From Calothrix sp. PCC 7103 (GTDB taxonomy: Bacteria > Cyanobacteriota > Cyanobacteriia > Cyanobacteriales > Nostocaceae), in the NCBI RefSeq assembly GCF_000331305.1, contig NZ_KB217478.1, forward strand, positions 5,939,646-6,003,645: a DNA stretch of 64,000 nucleotides, in the 5' to 3' direction. Below the pieces are notes generated by a model that worked only from the letters and a program-made list of their open reading frames with translations, was not told where the DNA came from and made no database searches. Of the stretch, positions 12,665-44,518 are shown in pieces; the stretch's first letter is position 1, and every line of letters starts with the position of its first letter. The translations under genes and the position numbers were made by a program.

Positions 12665-14771
12665 AAATATTATTAGTCGAGTCACGGGTAAACAAGCATC
12701 TAATATTGATGGAACAATTCGCGCTAGTGGTACTGCGAATCTGTTTTTGATAAATCCGAATGGTATTATTTTTGGTAATAATGCGAGTCTTAATATTGGT
12801 GGTTCGTTTCTAGCTAGTACAGCCAGTGCATTCAAGTTTGCTGATGGTACAATGTATAGTACAATAATTCTTCAAACCACACCCTTACTTACTGTTAGCG
12901 CTCCAATCGGGTTGCAATTTGGAACTACTGCAACACAAATTCACGTCACGTCTCAAGCTAGCACAGACGGTGTAACTAATAGTTTTCGTCTTCCCAAAGG
13001 TTTAGGAGTGCAGTCAGGCAATACTTTATCACTTATTGGCGGTAATTTAGTACTTGAAGGTGGAAATTTAACAGTACCTGGAGGAAAAATTTAGTTAATA
13101 AGTGTTGCGGTCAATAATTCTGTTAATTTAAATCCTATATCCCAAGTTTGGACTCCAGATAATCCTGATGCCCAAAATTTACAAGATATTAAATTACAAG
13201 GGAGAAATATTAACGGACAAAACATTCGTTCGATGGTAGATGTTGGTAGTGACAGGGGTAGTGGCAGTATTTATGTACAGGGTCGAATTGTAGAATTAAG
13301 CGGTAACTTAGTAAGCCTAGTAGCTATAAATAAGGGTTCTACAGATGGTCAAGGAATAACAATCTCAGCACAAAAATTAATTGTACGTGATGGTGCCCAA
13401 ATAAATACTTATACTTTAGGAATAGGTGCGGCAGGAGATATAAAAGCGAACATCTCTGAGTCCTTAGAATTAAGTGATAATTCAACATTGTTGCAGAATA
13501 ATAACACTGTATCTACTGGCATATTTAGTGTAACCTCAGTTAGTGGAAAAGCAGGCGATATAACAATTAATACTAAAAATTTATATATTCAAGGCGCACG
13601 GATATCTACACAATCTGAAGGAATATTTTTTCGGCTATTAAATCAATATATACCAGCTACAGGTGCAGGTGGAAATTTGACTATAAATGCTTTGAATTCG
13701 GTAGAAATAATTGGAAAAACAGATAATAATTTTAATATAGGTTTGTTTGCTGGAACTTTAAGTGAGGGTTCTTCTGGAAACTTGAAATTGACGACTGGGG
13801 AATTGATTATTCGTTCGGGTGGGGCAGTAACTGTCAGTAGTAAAATCCCTACAGAACCTACAGGGGTAACATATCTTGGAGATATAAGTAAATTAGGTAC
13901 TGCGGGGAATCTTGATGTAACTGCGCGCAACATTGTCTTAGATAGAAGCGCACGAATTACGTCAGAAACAGACTTAGGTCGTGGTGGAAATATAAATTTA
14001 CTGGTACGTGATTTATTACTAATGCGTAGAGGTAGCCAAATATCAGCATCGGCAGGTAAGTTGGATACTCCTGGGGATGGTGGAAATATTAATATTGATA
14101 TCCCTACTGGTTTTATTGTGGCGCCACCCCAAGAGAACAATGATATTACAGCAAATGCGTTTAGCGGTAGTGGTGGCAAAGTTCAAGTTAATGCAATTAG
14201 TCTTTTTGGTACGGCGCCACTTAGTCGAGAAGACTTAGTGAGAAAATTAGGAGTTAACAGCACAAACCCAAGTTTATTAGACCCAGCAAAGCTAAACTCA
14301 AGCGATATTACAGCTATTTCTCAGGAAAACCCAACATTGAACGGCGCCGTAAATATAAATACTCTGGATGACAATATTAATCGCACACCTGTTAATTTAC
14401 CAACCAAACTGGTTGAGCGGAAAGTTACCCAAAGCTGTAGAAATGATATAGTAAGAGGTCAAAGTCAATTTATTATCACTGGGCGTGGTGGAATACCTAC
14501 TGCTCCTGTTGACTTAATTAGAAGTAATACTACTTTGGAACCCGATTGGGTTTCAATTAAGAGGGGTAATAGTAAAAACGAGCAAGATTTATCAAGAGCG
14601 CACTCGCTCTTGATAAACGTAAATTCAAAGCACAGTTATCCAATGAAAATTGTGAAAGCGCAAAGCTGGGTAGGTTCTTCTGATGGTGATTTGTACTTAG
14701 TTGAGTCGGCACCATTCTCGACAAATTATAACCCTTGGTTTCGCGACTCTGAATGTGTTGTTCCAAATTAG

Positions 14772-25281: not shown

Positions 25282-26052
25282 TTAAAACGGTAAAAACTGA
25301 AGTAACACAGATGCTACTCCGCTTACAAAGTCCATAAAGTTGGGTTTGCCTGCACTGACTTTAGTATCCTGGGGTGTTTTTAGCTCCATGATAAAAGCTT
25401 GTGCGGTTTGAGTACCGTTAAGATTATTTTGAGCTTTGAACATTTTCTCTGCGATTTGCGCGTCTTGGAAGGCACCAGTACGGTCGAATAGCTGGTAACG
25501 AGCAATACCACGTGCTAAAAATGCTCCCGCATAATCGGGTTTAATGGCAATTGCCTGATTAAAATAATCAATAGCTTGCTGCTGGTTGCCTTTTTCACCA
25601 GCTGCTACTCCTAAAGCATAAAACTCATCGGGTGTGGCTATTTGTGAAGGAATACCCGCTGCACCCTGTAAGTTGGCACCGTTAAATGTTACGTTCGTCA
25701 ATTCTATGTTGTACAAATAGGCATTTCTTAAATCTGTACCCGCTATTGTGGCGCCACTTAATTTTGCCCCATTCAGATTGGCGCCGAATAAACTCGCACT
25801 CGTCAAATTTGCACCTCGCAAATCTGCTCCTGTCAAATTAGCACGGCTAAGGTTGGCAAGGGCAAGATTGGCGCCCGATAAATCAGCACCCGATAAATCC
25901 GCCATGACTAATCCTGCGCCGCTGAGGTCGCAGTTTTGACATTGTTTGGTAGCAAGTAATTGTCTAAGGTGTTCAGGGTTTGCCGCCTGAACTGCGGTTG
26001 TAAGGGTAACGGTTGTTACAAATGCAACTGTTGCTATAATCTGGTTTTTCAT
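25282..26052 (-). CDS. Exported pentapeptide-repeat plus TPR protein
   Basis: A 256-residue protein with a signal peptide (IIATVAFVTTVTLTTAVQA), a CQNCDLSGAGL start, then about 18 A(D/N)Lxx pentapeptides building a right-handed beta-helix (residues 42-130). One or two TPR units follow (QQAIDYFNQAIAIKPDYAGAFLARG). The pentapeptide/TPR combination is common in cyanobacteria and suggests a periplasmic or lumenal scaffold. No catalytic function is implied. The C-terminus ends with a hydrophobic FVSGVASVLLQFLPF. Confidence 0.82.
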   Translation of the reverse strand: MKNQIIATVAFVTTVTLTTAVQAANPEHLRQLLATKQCQNCDLSGAGLVMADLSGADLSGANLALANLSRANLTGADLRGANLTSASLFGANLNGAKLSGATIAGTDLRNAYLYNIELTNVTFNGANLQGAAGIPSQIATPDEFYALGVAAGEKGNQQQAIDYFNQAIAIKPDYAGAFLARGIARYQLFDRTGAFQDAQIAEKMFKAQNNLNGTQTAQAFIMELKTPQDTKVSAGKPNFMDFVSGVASVLLQFLPF

Positions 26053-26476: not shown

Positions 26477-27055
26477 CTAACGCAAAGCACCATTCAAATT
26501 CGCTCCATCAGTTTTGGCGCCATCTAAATTTGCCCCTCTAAGGTTTGCACCACTGAGATTGGCTCCTCTCAAATCGGTATTACTCAAATTCGCGTTTGTT
26601 AAATTCGCTCTTGCTAGGTTTGCCCCACCCATATTGGCGCCACTTAAATCAACACCAGTTAAATTTGAATTTGCTAAGTTTGCTCCACCCATTTGCGCTA
26701 GGCGAAAACTTTTCCCCCGTAAATCTTCACCCTGGAAGTTTGCACCTCCATAATTTTTACGTGTATTGCTCGTAACTATAGTGCTTCTTGCCTGCAAGGG
26801 TTGTGTTGTTGTTGTAGGTTTTTCTGCTGGAGATGGTGCCACGGGTATAGAGGTATCTACAGGCGCCTCTGATACGTTACTGTCTGGAACAGAATTAGAT
26901 GATACGCGCGTTTCTAAATTAGAAGGTTCGGTTGATACTGGCTTTTCTACAGATTTTAGTAGTAAATATATACCTGCTCCTGTAACTAACACAGCACCTG
27001 TTAGTACAGCAGTCAAGATAATAAGCAAACCTTGGCGCTGATTTTGCTTATGCAT
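26477..27055 (-). CDS. Membrane-anchored pentapeptide-repeat protein
   Basis: A 192-residue protein. One N-terminal transmembrane helix (GLLIILTAVLTGAVLVTGAGIYLLL) is followed by a Pro/Thr/Ser-rich linker and 15-16 pentapeptide repeats (LANSNLTGVDLSGANMGGAN onward) forming a short beta-helix facing the extracytoplasmic side. It is the second of three pentapeptide genes in this 7-kb stretch. Structural role likely; no enzyme motifs. Confidence 0.82.
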   Translation of the reverse strand: MHKQNQRQGLLIILTAVLTGAVLVTGAGIYLLLKSVEKPVSTEPSNLETRVSSNSVPDSNVSEAPVDTSIPVAPSPAEKPTTTTQPLQARSTIVTSNTRKNYGGANFQGEDLRGKSFRLAQMGGANLANSNLTGVDLSGANMGGANLARANLTNANLSNTDLRGANLSGANLRGANLDGAKTDGANLNGALR

Positions 27056-31306: not shown

Positions 31307-31939
31307 ATGCATATACAAAATTTTATTCAAAGCTTGTTAGGTCAAGCTCCAAAGCCTGTCTTACTATTCGATTCAGTCGAAAAAGCCAACGATATCGCTT
31401 TTATGCTCAAAGGCAAATGGGATGGTTGCAATGGTGTGGCTATATACCCATGCGATGAAGTTGCGGTGAACACTGCTGCAAGTTTGCTCGAAACGTCATG
31501 GTGTTATCAAGGTGATGCAAAAGCTGTTATTGAGAGTTTAAAACCCTTAGAACTCAAAACTAGTTATGCAAGAGGAGAGCGAATTTTTATCAACGCTAAC
31601 TTGAGATGTGCTGAACTTGTAGGCGCCGATTTAAGCGAAGCTAATTTCAGTTGTGCTAAACTAGATTGTGCGAATTTTAGTGAAGCTAATTTAAGTAAAG
31701 TCACTTTAACTGGGGCATCCGCGACCGAAATCAACTTAAAGCAGGCAAACTTGAGCGATTCAGAGCTAATAAGAACCAATTTCAAACTCGCTAATTTGGA
31801 AGGTGCTGATTTTAGAGGTGCAAATTTGACTCACGTTTGCTTTCTTGGAGCTAATTTAACTGGCGCCGACTTTAGAGGAGCGAAGCTTCAGTATACTAAT
31901 CTAAATAACTGTAATTTGACTGATGCTGTTTTCGATTAA
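31307..31939 (+). CDS. Pentapeptide-repeat protein with N-terminal alpha/beta domain
   Basis: A 210-residue cytoplasmic protein. Residues 1-85 form a small unannotated domain (PVLLFDSVEKANDIAFMLKG, CDEVAVNTAASLLE). Residues 86-210 hold about 22 pentapeptides (ANLRCAELVGADLSEANF onward). It is the third pentapeptide protein in the region, on the opposite strand from the others. It lacks a signal peptide, unlike the genes at 25282 and 26477. Function unknown. Confidence 0.8.
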   Translation: MHIQNFIQSLLGQAPKPVLLFDSVEKANDIAFMLKGKWDGCNGVAIYPCDEVAVNTAASLLETSWCYQGDAKAVIESLKPLELKTSYARGERIFINANLRCAELVGADLSEANFSCAKLDCANFSEANLSKVTLTGASATEINLKQANLSDSELIRTNFKLANLEGADFRGANLTHVCFLGANLTGADFRGAKLQYTNLNNCNLTDAVFD

Positions 31940-33719: not shown

Positions 33720-33732
33720 TTAAAATTAAATT

Positions 33733-34034
33733 GTCATTCTCAGCGTAGCGAAAAATCTAAATTGTCATTCCGAACGTAGTCAAGAATCTAAATTGTCATT
33801 CTGAACGTAGTGAAGAATCTAAAAAATCAGCTTTTTAGAAAAGATTATAACTCGAATGATAGATGATATAAATAGTTACTTACAGCTTTTATAAGTATGC
33901 CTTGATATAGCAAATTTTATGATATTTCTATGCTCTAAGCAATAGGCGCCAATATTCCTAGAGGATAAATCAGGTGTAAACATATCCTCTAGGAAAATCT
34001 TCACATGGCGCCAATATTCCTAGAGGATAAATCA
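33733..34034. repeat. Cluster of palindromic and direct repeats
   Basis: Three degenerate copies of the TTGTCATTC(T/C)GAACGTAG-type repeat occupy 33733-33821. A 29-bp direct repeat starting GGCGCCAATATTCCTAGAGG occurs at 33944-33972 and 34006-34034. Between the two lies the inverted TATCCTCTAGGAA (33983-33995), also found at 23068-23113. The cluster marks the left edge of the Argonaute cassette; no gene in 33720-34164. Confidence 0.8.
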
Positions 34035-34164
34035 GATTTACATGTATGTTCTAGTACTTGATGTGATTTATGAAAGTGGCCGACACCTAACTCTAACTTT
34101 GACTCTCTAGTAGATGCATTATCAGACTGATGGTGTAACCAAATGTATGCAGTTATTGATGTAC

Positions 34165-35805
34165 TTAGGGTGCATCAAGATAGATAAGCTTCTTAGCTTT
34201 ATGAGACCAACCACAAAACTGTAGATCAGTATATGAGAGACGAGCAAGTCCGTTTGCCCATTGAAGTGGAGCAGGGAGACGACTGGGTTGGTAAGAGAGA
34301 GTAGCAGAATGGCAAAGAGCAGTAAGCAACGAAGCTATTTCTAATGGGCTATGTCCATTAGGGTTAATTGATGTACGGAATTTTACTGGTGTTGTTAGTA
34401 TTCCATATTGCGGTGAAATACAGGGGTATAGGGCGGTGAAATCTGACCCCTCAAGCAAAATTGTTGTACCTGGTTCGGGTTCTAGTGGCGCACAATGGAT
34501 TAAAGGAGAGCCAGATTTTGAGTACTCAATCAGCGTAAAATTACGGTTGAGCATAGCTTCATAATAAGAGTTTGTTGATTCGTTATGTGGCCTAAGTCCA
34601 TCACGTATAAGATAAATATGCCGATTAGGCGCCAATAATTCTGCTTGGGAAGTAATCCAAGATAAACCCTCACAAAGCACTTTTTTTGAAAGTGTTTCAT
34701 CTTCGTTTTTTCTAGCTCGCCAATGAGCCTGTAATATACCCTCTGGGCTAGTGAGTGTAATTGCTAAAACTTTTCCCTTGTAGTAACCACCTCTACCCAT
34801 ATCAAGTCCAACAAACCAACTATCACGGAAATGAGGAAAGTTATCGGGTTCCGTAACAAAGATGCTCCCGTTAGCTTTTGCGAGGATAGCAATAGCAAGA
34901 CCGTGCCTTGAATAGAGAGGGTTTGATGTAGTTGAGCAAAGTTGGAAAGCTGCTTTTTCAGAATCAAGATACTTTAGCCAATCCATAACTGTGTCAGGTG
35001 GACGAACTCCCTTTTTACCTTCAAGTGGAACCAAGACAATAGGTTGCCCTTGTGTGTGGTCGGACAGAAAAGTTTCTATTTCGGCGCCGTTTCCAAGGTC
35101 TTTAAGAGAAGCATGACATTGCCATTCATGAAGGACGCGCACTATTTCTCTTCCAATATTAAGTGCTGCACCAGTCGCACTGACAGTACCAGAAAGAACC
35201 CCAAGCCTCACAGAAGCTGGTATAGCAGCTTTGCTAGTTTTGACTGCATTCAACAAGTTTTTTGATAACCCTGGATTTTGAACAATTTGAGCTAGGGAGT
35301 GAGAGCAGTTATCAAAGTAGTAGTGTATGTTTATGGCAGGATGCGCTTCTGTATAATCGCTGTGATGCTTAAGCTGTGTCTTACCAAGAGAATTATTGAA
35401 AAACTTTATTAATTGCTCAATACCAGCAATCATTGGTTGATGCCGCAAAACTTCTGGATACTTACCCTTAGAAAAAAGCTCGTCGGTGGAAAAGAAGGTT
35501 GGAAACTTTGACCCAGGCTCAAAAACTAGACGGGTAAGAGAAATACCAACTAAAGTACCTTCTTCGGCTCGTCCAAAAGCTACTCTTGAAAGCTTATAGC
35601 CATTACGACATGTGTACTTAGAGCCTGGTACCTTTATCTCTGACTCTTTTGGGTTCCAAATCCGTAGTGATGTATCCAGAATATCATAGCGGTAGGGGCA
35701 GTCTACTGTCTCAAGGCATTTTTCAAGCAATTCTCTCCAACCATCTGGGCGTGAAATTCCAGGCAGTTGGTAACATTCCCAAATAGAGGCGCCTTTATTA
35801 TTCAT
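34165..35805 (-). CDS. Prokaryotic Argonaute (compact, MID-PIWI)
   Basis: A 546-residue protein. Residues about 1-240 have no PAZ that I recognise. A MID domain follows (PIVLVPLEGKKG at 255-266, TVMDWLKYLDSEKAAFQLCS at 272-291, LAIAILAKANG). The PIWI domain (330-546) includes GLDMGRGGYYKGK (D335), an acidic glycine-finger segment NEDETLS (E368/E370), LIRDGLRPHNE (D402) and the C-terminal PAPLQWANGLARLSY. There N518 aligns with the last catalytic residue of eukaryotic Ago (PAYYAH). The resulting D-E-D-N tetrad could be active. pAgos use short guide nucleic acids against invading DNA or RNA. The gene overlaps the upstream partner by 8 bases, so the two are translationally coupled. Confidence 0.85.
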   Translation of the reverse strand: MNNKGASIWECYQLPGISRPDGWRELLEKCLETVDCPYRYDILDTSLRIWNPKESEIKVPGSKYTCRNGYKLSRVAFGRAEEGTLVGISLTRLVFEPGSKFPTFFSTDELFSKGKYPEVLRHQPMIAGIEQLIKFFNNSLGKTQLKHHSDYTEAHPAINIHYYFDNCSHSLAQIVQNPGLSKNLLNAVKTSKAAIPASVRLGVLSGTVSATGAALNIGREIVRVLHEWQCHASLKDLGNGAEIETFLSDHTQGQPIVLVPLEGKKGVRPPDTVMDWLKYLDSEKAAFQLCSTTSNPLYSRHGLAIAILAKANGSIFVTEPDNFPHFRDSWFVGLDMGRGGYYKGKVLAITLTSPEGILQAHWRARKNEDETLSKKVLCEGLSWITSQAELLAPNRHIYLIRDGLRPHNESTNSYYEAMLNRNFTLIEYSKSGSPLIHCAPLEPEPGTTILLEGSDFTALYPCISPQYGILTTPVKFRTSINPNGHSPLEIASLLTALCHSATLSYQPSRLPAPLQWANGLARLSYTDLQFCGWSHKAKKLIYLDAP

Positions 35806-36784
35806 TACAGTCCTCTACTTCCATCACGACTTTTGACCAAACTAAAGCAAGGTTCATCAGATACAAAATTGATCTGCTCCACTGCTCCCATTGGTCAGAA
35901 TTATAAGAATGTCCAAAGCGATTACGATGAGTATTCAGGTTAAAAAGGATTGGTATAGGTCTATCTGCTGGGTTACTTTTGTCAAAGAAAATTAGTTCTT
36001 CATGTTTAGCTTTATCAATAAGGGTGCCAAACCTTGTATTAGGATTCTCGTCTCCAACAAGCTTGCTCAGTTGCTTTTTAAGGTATTCGTGAGTATTTAT
36101 AACAAAAACTGTCGGTTCTCTAAGAGGCTTGTATTTATTTATCCAGTCGCAAAAAGACTTCTGCTGACCCGAAGTAAAGCAGGCAATTGTGATAAGTGCT
36201 TTTTCTATCAACTCAATCTCTTTTTGCTTAGTCGGGTCAAGGTTTTCAGGAAGTACCTCAACCAAGAGAGTTTCTACTGATGGTTGTTTCGGCGCCTCAA
36301 ATTTGTTAAGTATCTTGGCAGCTTCATCTTGAGTTTCGCGCAGTTCTTCAATAGTACGACTTTGGTTAGCTGCTACATCCCTCAGTGATTCGAGCATGAC
36401 TCGGATGTGTTCAAGCTCGCTCGAAATCTTGCCTTGTGAATCACTACTATCTTCAAGAGAAGGAATTTGTTCATCTTCAAGAAACTGGTCATCAAACTCA
36501 TAATAGTTTGATTTTTTAGCAGGCGCTTCAATATCAGCAGGACGTTGTGTTTTTGGGCGCCGGATATTAAAACTGTCGGCATCGTTCTGAAACTCTTCTA
36601 AAAGGGCTTCATATGTAGTTGGGTCTTTAGGATAAACCCATGCTTCACGATTTCCATCCCATTGCCGTCCTGGAATTTTTTTTGCACGCTCACGATTTCC
36701 AGGATGAATTTTAACTAAAAAATGGGTATTGTCCTCTAAAACCTTGATTGGACCTAATTTTCCAGGGTTAAAACTTATAAGCAT
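35798..36784 (-). CDS. Argonaute partner: HARP-like N-terminus, coiled coil, HEPN-like C-terminus
   Basis: A 328-residue protein, first gene of the cassette. Residues 20-65 (FLVKIHPGNRERAKKIPGR, WDGNREAWVYP) resemble the HARP-type nucleic-acid-annealing fold of SMARCAL1-like proteins. Residues 85-165 are acidic and coiled-coil (SSELEHIRVMLESLRDV). The C-terminal about 150 residues are helical and contain R287-N-R-F-G-H292 (THRNRFGH), an Rx4H motif as in HEPN ribonucleases, followed by the helix WSRSILYLMNLALVW. I infer a toxic RNase effector or sensor controlled by the Argonaute. No APAZ domain is evident, unlike most short-pAgo partners. Domain calls are by eye. Confidence 0.7.
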   Translation of the reverse strand: MLISFNPGKLGPIKVLEDNTHFLVKIHPGNRERAKKIPGRQWDGNREAWVYPKDPTTYEALLEEFQNDADSFNIRRPKTQRPADIEAPAKKSNYYEFDDQFLEDEQIPSLEDSSDSQGKISSELEHIRVMLESLRDVAANQSRTIEELRETQDEAAKILNKFEAPKQPSVETLLVEVLPENLDPTKQKEIELIEKALITIACFTSGQQKSFCDWINKYKPLREPTVFVINTHEYLKKQLSKLVGDENPNTRFGTLIDKAKHEELIFFDKSNPADRPIPILFNLNTHRNRFGHSYNSDQWEQWSRSILYLMNLALVWSKVVMEVEDCNE

Positions 36785-37004
36785 ATTTATATCAAGACGA
36801 ATAATAGTTGAATAAGCAAAAAAATCTAGCGCGATAATTAGAACGCGGTAAAAGCGAAAAATAATATTCTGTCATGATATACAAAATATTTTTATTTGAG
36901 AATTGTGGATATTACACAAAGATTGAAAGTAGAATTACTTAAATATGTTTTTTATAGCATTGTCTAAACATTTCATGTTGGGTTTCTTTAGCCTCCACCC
37001 AACC

Positions 37005-37096
37005 CAATACTGCTCGGTTAACGTATGTAGAGACGTTACATGTAACGTCTCTACAAGGGTTTCACATTTCGCAATTATCTTAACCGAGCAGTATTG
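37005..37096. mobile_element. 92-bp MITE with 10-bp target duplication
   Basis: Perfect 17-bp terminal inverted repeats (CAATACTGCTCGGTTAA) enclose a perfect 30-bp inner palindrome at 37026-37055 (arms TGTAGAGACGTTACA). The flanking direct repeats CCACCCAACC at 36995-37004 and 37097-37106 are identical. The inner palindrome belongs to the same family as 55037-55066. Confidence 0.9.
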
Positions 37097-37143
37097 CCAC
37101 CCAACCTATAACTTTACTTTTAAATAAAATTAAAATCTTTTAA

Positions 37144-42952: not shown

Positions 42953-44518
42953 ATGCAGCCAAAATCCTTGAAATCTACCCTAGCGACTTTTTCTGTAACT
43001 CTTGGTTTCGGAACCGTTGCAGCTTTTTTGTCACCTTCGTTTAAAACTGGTGCAGCAGTATTTAGTAGTGCAATTGCTAGTGCAGGTATGGCTGTACTGA
43101 ATATTCGAGAACAGAAAAAGAACGAACGATTGCTTCGAGAGGTTAAACGTTTAGCAACAGCCTATGCGAATTTAGAATTAAAGGTAGAAAATTTAGAGAG
43201 ATTTTATCAGCTTCAAAGTAGTAATCAGCTTGTAGTTAACCCAGTTAATTCGATATCAACTTCATATACACCTCAAATTATTGCAGCAACAGGTGTTGAT
43301 AAGTTAATAGCTGAATTAAATAGATTGAAAGTTAATTTAAGGTTGCCTTACAAGCAGTTAGAGAAAGATGATTTATTTGATACAGCTATTTTTATGGGAG
43401 ATAACTATCTTGCATTAGCTTTAGTGTATCGAAAGATGAAAGCGAGTATAAGCGGTGACATGCAGGCTGGTTTTTCGTATAAATTATCTGGGAGTGAGGA
43501 TAATGATGAGATATGTTTACGTTTTCGAGCCATTTTAGAGAGTAAGGGGTTATGGACTTCTAAATATATTAAGTCTGAGAAAAGAATTCGGTTTCAACCA
43601 CATAGTGGAGATACAAAGGTTAGAAGTTTTTTTGAGGGAGGATGGTTAGAAAAGTTTGTTGTTTACAAAATATGTAGTTTGCTTTCACTACATGGTAGAA
43701 ATTTTGAATATTTAATTAATCCTCATGTGAGTTATTCTTTTGAAGAGTCGAAGTATTATGAGCTTGATGCTTTATTTTTAGTTGATAATCAATTAATTTT
43801 ATTTGAAGTCAAAACTGGTGATAAAAGTAATGTATATCTTAATCAAATCAATGAGCATTCTAAACGTAGGCGCCTAAATCTTTCTAAAAATCGAGCTTTT
43901 TTAGTTACATTATCATTAACTGATAGTGAGACTGAGGACTGGAATCGAAATAATAATAATATTACTGTAGTTAATCTGAATAATTTAACAAATTGTTTTG
44001 CTAATAGTTTGGGGATAGTTACTACTGAAGAATCGAAAATACAACCTTCTATATTTAGCACTGAAGAGCTATATACATTTTTGAATCACAAAAAACTGCG
44101 TCCTTCACCAGAACACCGTTTGAATGTGATTACAGAGTTAGTCAGCACGATAAAATCTCTTGAGGAACCATTAACTTTTAATGAAATTAGAAACAAAATT
44201 GCTGAAAAGTTACAGATATCGAAAGCGTTAACAGAAGAAATTTTACGTGCTATTCGACGTTCTAGTTGTTTTGTTAATGCTGAGGGGGGATTAATATCAC
44301 AGTTCACACAGTTGAGTGAGCCAATAAAAGGTTTATTATTTGAAGATATTTCAGTTTTAGATAGTAAATGTATTGAGACTTATGCTTCTACAGTTGTAGC
44401 TGAATATCCAAATTATTTTAACAGCTTACACAATATTAAAATATTTGAAGAAACTGTTGGCGCCGAAGCTCCTGATCTAGAAATAATCAATCAACTCAAG
44501 CTCAGAAATATCAATTAA
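42953..44518 (+). CDS. Membrane-anchored PD-(D/E)xK nuclease-like protein
   Basis: A 521-residue protein. The N-terminus has one or two hydrophobic helices (STLATFSVTLGFGTVAAFL and AAVFSSAIASAGMAVLNI), then a coiled coil (51-90). Residues 228-320 resemble the nuclease part of DUF1887/Card1-type proteins: GGWLEKFVVYK (229-239), the catalytic-like YYELDALFL (E270, D272) and ILFEVKTGD (E285, K287). The C-terminal part is helical, perhaps a winged helix (LTFNEIRNKIAEKLQISKALTEE). No CARF domain or CRISPR array is present. A membrane-linked DNA- or RNA-cleaving defence role is inferred only. Confidence 0.68.
   Translation: MQPKSLKSTLATFSVTLGFGTVAAFLSPSFKTGAAVFSSAIASAGMAVLNIREQKKNERLLREVKRLATAYANLELKVENLERFYQLQSSNQLVVNPVNSISTSYTPQIIAATGVDKLIAELNRLKVNLRLPYKQLEKDDLFDTAIFMGDNYLALALVYRKMKASISGDMQAGFSYKLSGSEDNDEICLRFRAILESKGLWTSKYIKSEKRIRFQPHSGDTKVRSFFEGGWLEKFVVYKICSLLSLHGRNFEYLINPHVSYSFEESKYYELDALFLVDNQLILFEVKTGDKSNVYLNQINEHSKRRRLNLSKNRAFLVTLSLTDSETEDWNRNNNNITVVNLNNLTNCFANSLGIVTTEESKIQPSIFSTEELYTFLNHKKLRPSPEHRLNVITELVSTIKSLEEPLTFNEIRNKIAEKLQISKALTEEILRAIRRSSCFVNAEGGLISQFTQLSEPIKGLLFEDISVLDSKCIETYASTVVAEYPNYFNSLHNIKIFEETVGAEAPDLEIINQLKLRNIN

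Follow-up and report, generated by a model that had tools for sequence, protein, structure and literature searches.

A PAZ-less Argonaute whose cutting site appears intact and its HARP- and HEPN-like partner: a candidate two-gene defense module in Calothrix sp. PCC 7103

Several prokaryotic Argonaute (pAgo) systems with a second, effector-like component have been described. In inactive long-B pAgos, the gene immediately downstream fuses a helical domain to a transmembrane, TIR, HEPN, or PD-(D/E)XK domain (PMC10954474), while APAP consists of a catalytically active haloarchaeal long-A pAgo and the PLD-family protein AgaP, which is toxic by itself and is kept in check by the pAgo (PMC11442185). 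In the two-gene systems SPARTA, SPARSA, and SPARDA, the pAgo contains MID and PIWI only and is inactive, the APAZ domain accompanies the effector, and the effector is activated by the target (PMC12948488). Furthermore, 31 long pAgos without PAZ have been reported (Ryazansky 2018, PMC6299218). We herein analyzed 64,000 nucleotides (nt) of the 11.58 Mb genome of the cyanobacterium Calothrix sp. PCC 7103 (G000:C7:5939646-6003645; referred to as the window), in which a PAZ-less Argonaute (Ago) with an apparently intact tetrad is encoded together with a partner protein consisting of a HARP-like domain, a coiled coil, and a HEPN-like domain. We favor, with modest confidence, the view that the pair is a guide-directed defense module, in which a slicer Argonaute is combined with an RNase partner.

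The pair resembled long-B pAgos with a helical-HEPN partner (AfAgo homologs; PMC10954474) in that PAZ is reduced or absent in some of them and HEPN follows a helical region; however, those pAgos are inactive and their partner is located downstream, whereas here the tetrad appeared to be kept and the partner was upstream and began with a HARP-like domain. Similar to APAP (PMC11442185), in which both components contribute to immunity, a seemingly slicer-competent pAgo was genetically linked to a partner of a putative nuclease family, but APAP has an archaeal host, a pAgo classed as long-A, and a PLD-family partner in place of the modeled HARP-like, coiled-coil, and HEPN-like folds of this one. 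The two-gene organization of pAgo and effector is shared with SPARTA, SPARSA, and SPARDA, from which this locus differed because N, L1, and L2 were within the Argonaute and the partner lacked a β-rich APAZ-like part. The truncated long pAgos of PMC6299218 are similar in their loss of PAZ, and the words HEPN and HARP are absent from the main text of that paper, as is HEPN from the main text of PMC10620215. The initial annotation of this DNA stated that no pAgo type with such a partner had been described. In the open papers searched (preprints aside, and including PMC12988326, PMC3710099, and PMC5303251), neither an active-tetrad Argonaute with a HARP-HEPN partner, nor a HARP domain with a pAgo, nor a HARP domain with HEPN was found. 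Within these papers, the statement held for this combination, but was too broad in two respects: HEPN partners of inactive long-B pAgos (PMC10954474) and a nuclease partner of one catalytically active pAgo (PMC11442185) were already described.

The two genes were on the minus strand: the partner (328 amino acid residues; 35798-36784) preceded the Argonaute (546 residues; 34165-35805), and their reading frames overlapped by 8 nt (35798-35805), with a GAGG stretch upstream of the Argonaute start. Both genes were assigned by ORF calls, homolog searches, structural models, and fold matches. The gene pair, its 8-base overlap, and the motifs GLDMG, LIRDG, PAPLQWAN, and RNRFGH had been noted in the initial annotation, and were confirmed as a real observation: the ORF calls agreed, and the motifs were all present and stood above chance among 56 Ago and 89 partner homolog clusters (each set including the protein of the window itself).

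The two genes were adjacent and in the same order in all seven loci with both (the window, L002, L003, L005, L006, L018, and L033). The frames overlapped at five of six junctions (the window, L002, L003, L005, and L018), while those of L006 were 3 nt apart; translational coupling of the partner and Argonaute is likely. In the protein tables, the longest contig of 21 of the 56 Ago clusters was equal in size to that of a partner cluster, and this was the case for 15 of the 31 clusters on contigs of at least 4 kb; these counts are likely lower bounds because one contig is shown per cluster. None of the distant partner clusters after P0116 was matched to an Ago cluster in this manner; P0117-P0145 comprised two partner subgroups at 30-40% identity. 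Sequence identities of Ago and partner were correlated over 23 loci (r 0.88), of which 21 were paired by equal contig size, and none of 2000 permutations gave as high a value. When the two most distant loci were removed, r was 0.80, again with 0 of 2000 permutations as high. In the genome of L004, the Ago was present and the partner was not found.

When PDB sequences were searched with each protein as a single sequence, the Argonaute had no match and the partner only chance matches, and an NCBIfam search yielded nothing useful; profile and fold searches were needed to place both proteins. In the structure match, the Argonaute model aligned from residues 1-4 onward with the N-terminal regions of TtAgo and Ago2. 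Approximately 200 residues ahead of MID aligned with N, L1, and L2, and PAZ was the only missing domain. On the basis of the model and the aligned ranges, the N, L1, and L2 region corresponded to approximately residues 1-197 (35215-35805), and MID to approximately residues 199-320 (34846-35211; also from alignments with long pAgos). PIWI comprised residues 329-546 (34168-34821; model, profile, and alignment), and MID and PIWI were in the arrangement of the Argonaute superfamily. Thus, the MID-PIWI features initially proposed were present with a PIWI/RNase-H fold, but they were accompanied by an N domain and both linkers, and the suggested likeness to short pAgos did not hold. The short pAgo reading was ruled out by the N domain found by fold and the kept tetrad. 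In MID, Q288 and K310 lined up with the Q and K of long pAgos, K310 being fully conserved across the family, while the Y of the usual YK pair was not evident in one sequence alignment with gaps at that spot.

Four residues of PIWI, D335 (34801-34803), E370 (34696-34698), D402 (34600-34602), and N518 (34252-34254), matched D, E, D, and D/X of most long PIWI proteins in an alignment that combined 11 members of the family and 24 further PIWI proteins of the phylum (L001 of the same genome and 23 loci, including 2 short pAgos). D335 and D402 were also aligned by hhalign, the row of which was off by approximately 1 residue at E370. Among the 56 Ago clusters, D335 and D402 were invariant (56/56 each), and E370 was found in 50, with D in four of the others and Q in two. 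Two rows had a gap at N518; of the remaining 54, 53 had N and one had D. The fourth position was D in the distant members P0056, L004, L006, and L018. In the same PIWI alignment, the tetrad was missing in the long protein L070 and in the short pAgos L072 and L073, and L066 had no residue in the last column. These results suggest that the DEDX set of slicer-type Argonautes is present and that the cutting site is apparently intact, consistent with the possibly active tetrad that had been initially proposed.

The kept tetrad also separated the protein, as far as alignments indicate, from the inactive long-B pAgos, while PAZ, which is usual but not universal in long-A pAgos, was absent. Alignment to the genome's own long-A pAgo by hhalign gave 95.7%. 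In a MID-PIWI tree of 30 rows, the family formed one clade (100/100; stem 2.88) that was separate from the long and short proteins included. This tree contained 19 of the 24 PIWI proteins outside the family: L059, L065, L066, and L067 (truncated or broken frames) were omitted, as was L070 (full length, yet divergent and without the tetrad), and the join of the clade with L062 and L071 was flagged as a possible long-branch artifact. When L066 and L070 were restored (32 rows, 21 of the 24), the family was still one clade (SH-aLRT, a likelihood-based branch support, 100; stem 2.86), and also when L062 and L071 were then removed (30 rows; SH-aLRT 100; stem 3.95). The rows included no named long-B reference, and the family either joined long-branch rows or had no clear point of attachment. 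The pPIWI-RE family has a characteristic conserved R and E. Assignment to it by PADLOC name was not usable: PDLC02428 (PprPIWI) also matched the ordinary long-A pAgo of this genome at 1e-50, and, therefore, a PprPIWI hit is not diagnostic and the name alone cannot classify pAgos.

Other Argonautes were encountered in these comparisons. The second pAgo of the same genome (746 residues; G000:C7:7425072-7425857, L001:103-2343) was an ordinary long-A protein that closely resembled Chroococcidiopsis thermalis Argonaute 9iad (1059.5 bits), and was assigned to pAgo_II by PADLOC. L070 (G143:C3:4158635-4159171) was a long pAgo-like protein of 764 residues with a very long branch. L072 (2-2403), a distant phylum member, encoded a short pAgo of 471 residues that had lost the tetrad and was located directly behind a 328-residue ORF, a possible short-pAgo pair.

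The N-terminus of the partner appeared to contain a HARP/XPB-like domain (residues 11-75; 36560-36754) with the signature IPGRxWD...W..P, and its model had an XPB-like fold in the structure search, in agreement with the HARP-like N-terminus initially proposed; the SMARCAL1 HARP structure was not among the matches listed, which is neutral either way. The HARP domain has a five-stranded sheet with two helices and binds DNA junctions. A coiled coil had also been predicted, and the model had a long helix (residues 116-161; 36302-36439) for which designed coiled coils led the profile search. The C-terminus appeared to have a HEPN-like helical fold (residues 187-319; 35828-36226), the model matching HEPN-MNT, RnlA, and Csm6, with which it shared an Rx4-6H motif (R287-N288-R-F-G-H292; 35909-35926, from the homolog alignment). 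In contrast to these three, the HEPN-like domain was linked in this locus with both a HARP-like domain and an Argonaute, and its RNase function is putative. R287 was found in all 88 partner rows with a residue (the single gap was in the truncated P0111), and H followed after four intervening residues in 87 of these 88 and after five in P0102; R287, N284, and H292 were among the best-kept residues of the domain. The HEPN-like C-terminus and its Rx4H motif, as initially annotated, were supported by the modeled fold and by the near-invariance of the motif, and the domain may be an RNase. The APAZ domain is β-rich and N-like. The partner model had no strand of at least 3 residues after residue 52, the rest being coiled coil and HEPN-like helices, and the partner did not correspond to the APAZ proteins of short pAgo systems, the Argonaute carrying its own N, L1, and L2. 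No PLD match was found among the best 25 of 42 Pfam families for the partner. None of the findings that the initial annotation had named as contrary to its proposal (no PIWI fold, a C-terminus other than HEPN with R287 and H292 unconserved, homologs never adjacent) was made. Overall, the initial interpretation was supported in part.

The module was rare and patchy. A full Ago was found in one of 386 cyanobacterial genomes, that of the window, and one other held a fragment, while 24 of 244 cyanobacterial genomes had some Piwi match. In the genus, 4 of 7 genomes had a match, of which 3 were broken or fragmentary. The partner was detected in 4 of 217 genomes of the family and 3 of 340 of the order, in 1 of 293 genomes of the order of an Alcanivorax genome (that genome itself), and in 2 of 247 genomes of the phylum of L003 (its own and an orphan). 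Of 64 genomes in the phylum of L004, none but the one already known had the Ago. No relative of the Ago was found by tblastn in plasmid and phage record collections, nor one of the partner P0143 in plasmids, where the partner of the window was not itself searched. When viral contigs were scanned with two subgroups of the partner, no full relative was found (nothing for one, and four loci over approximately 31 residues only for the other). A profile search with A3 yielded no additions beyond three fragments (P0146-P0148), and both Ago searches scored 7997 candidates sharing most words, so that farther relatives were possibly missed. Six of ten neighboring ORFs tested in L004, L006, and L018 had PADLOC matches, at least one in each locus: AbiEi in L004; a type I specificity subunit, a PDC-M55A-like ATPase, and a partial BrxL match in L006; and PDC-S11 and a coiled-coil match to LmuB/JetC in L018, a contig from IMG/VR. 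The contig of L018 also encoded, at 13233-14183, another HEPN-like protein (HEPN_Swt1, E 8.7e-5, below the cut-off), adjoining an rve-domain transposase.

Comparison with close relatives suggested loss of the module. The flanking histidine-kinase and cyclic-nucleotide genes were in place in G386, G387, G390, and G391. G386 retained the partner, but its Ago lacked codons 215-266 (52 codons) in MID, and only Ago remnants were left in G391 (the last 402 nt), G387 (approximately 140 nt in two pieces), and G390 (51 nt); in G388 and G389, the downstream flank was seen with nothing of either gene. Thus, the module was probably present in the ancestor of at least five genomes (G000, G386, G387, G390, and G391) and is now being lost. 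Between G000 and G386, the pairwise w was 0.21 for the partner, 0.37 for Ago, and 0 to 0.18 for four flanking genes; the partner value fits purifying selection despite the damaged Ago. Partners without a whole Ago were also found elsewhere. G174 had a full-length partner with intact Rx4H, and a genome search found only an Ago fragment. G544 had partner residues 118-328, with only a 19-residue remnant of the Ago start within 9 kb (E 0.006). An orphan in G902, of the phylum of L003 (L032:6461-7318), encoded a HARP-like, coiled-coil, and HEPN-like protein of 285 residues with 25% identity over residues 17-180 (tblastn) and RNxxxH by eye; no Ago was present in the 14 kb read around it, a genome-wide search not having been made. 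A lone partner thus seems tolerable in these few cases, which speaks for activation by Ago over restraint.

Within the defense reading, the genes, overlap, folds, conserved residues, and co-divergence were computed. The Argonaute fold from N to PIWI, the kept tetrad, the HEPN-like fold with Rx4H, and the XPB-like N-terminus speak for this reading, as do the fixed gene order, co-divergence, patchy distribution, and PADLOC neighbors; both inactive long-B pAgos with helical-HEPN partners and an active pAgo with a PLD nuclease provide precedents. The coupling, complex, type of guide and target, activation, RNase and slicer activities, and defense role are putative components of the following scheme. 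Translational coupling would yield both proteins together, which may form a complex, and the Argonaute with a small guide would scan the nucleic acid of an invader. Pairing with the target may expose a junction between single strand and duplex, to be bound by the HARP part; alternatively, a change in the Argonaute may cluster partners through the coiled coil. Two HEPN domains would then form a composite RNase site (R287 and H292), RNA would be cut, and growth or infection would be stopped, while the Argonaute would slice the target and may thereby also end the signal. More tentatively, we propose that a still-slicing PAZ-less Argonaute also gates a HEPN RNase and that a HARP-like junction reader senses the edge of the guide-target duplex.

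The persistence of partners without a whole Ago bears on an alternative of the toxin-antitoxin kind, in which the HARP-HEPN protein is a constitutively toxic RNase restrained by the Argonaute and is freed when an invader diverts or removes the latter. Overlapping genes suit such a module, and the PLD partner of APAP is toxic alone and suppressed by its pAgo (PMC11442185). However, a full-length partner with intact Rx4H remains in G174 beside an Ago fragment only, that of G386 is intact (w 0.21) next to an Ago with a damaged MID, and the related orphan of G902 has no Ago in the region read; since an antitoxin also has no need of a kept slicer tetrad, we regard this explanation as unlikely.

It appears quite unlikely that the HEPN RNase instead makes guides, processing transcripts to small RNAs with which the Argonaute, once loaded, slices the DNA or RNA of an invader, even though the proteins co-diverge and the slicer site seems to be kept. 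HEPN RNases typically leave 5'-hydroxyl ends. MpAgo favors 5'-hydroxylated guide RNAs, and a MID that keeps Q288 and K310 with no evident Y may accept an unusual 5' end of the guide; however, this MID reading comes from one alignment with gaps right there, pAgo partners are read as effectors in PMC10954474, PMC11442185, and PMC10620215, and a guide maker has no obvious need of a junction-binding HARP domain. Long-A pAgos are mostly active nucleases (PMC10620215, PMC11442185), and the intact tetrad and XPB-like fold may also be accommodated by a plain slicer with a DNA-binding helper, in which HARP would ease access to single strands and the HEPN-like domain would do no more than bind a nucleotide or hold the dimer. 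This is very unlikely in view of R287, N284, and H292 being among the best-kept C-terminal residues. Non-catalytic HEPN domains usually lose the motif.

The initial annotation also regarded repeats and a miniature inverted-repeat transposable element (MITE) as the bounds of a cassette. The MITE-like element upstream of the partner (36995-37113; strand unassigned) was real and dispersed, with 17-nt terminal inverted repeats and three further near-full genome copies at 89-93%; its central 30-nt palindrome was widespread, with a total of 76 matches, of which many were registered on both strands. On the other hand, positions 36986-37142 were missing at the orthologous site of G386, which holds the partner and flank, and, therefore, the element does not bound the cassette and represents a later insertion outside the module. 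A mobile cassette with these bounds was ruled out by this site and by the copies elsewhere in the genome. Repeats 3' of Ago (33727-34054) were also seen in relatives that had lost the module. The neighbors in the window that were named by Pfam (IF-3, class-III aminotransferase, TENA, CAAD, and pentapeptide proteins) were housekeeping or general, and an rRNA operon was located further along. Three pentapeptide-repeat proteins were encoded within 7 kb (25282-26052, 26477-27055, and 31307-31939). A 521-residue ORF near the IF-3 gene (42953-44518) had a weak Card1-like endonuclease match (E 1.5e-4, below the cut-off), and could be a nuclease.

pAgo systems are usually divided into slicers that work alone and inactive pAgos that trigger an effector, with APAP as the one exception found. 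With the present pair, active Argonautes would gain an RNA-cutting effector, together with a DNA-junction-binding type of domain that was not found in the literature searched on pAgo partners, and the G902 orphan offers a hint of the sort of module that may have supplied the partner. If the proposed scheme is true, a guided slicer with a collateral RNase would be an Argonaute-based functional counterpart of type III and VI CRISPR, and a pair that apparently keeps both blades would test how slicing and effector firing combine or alternate.
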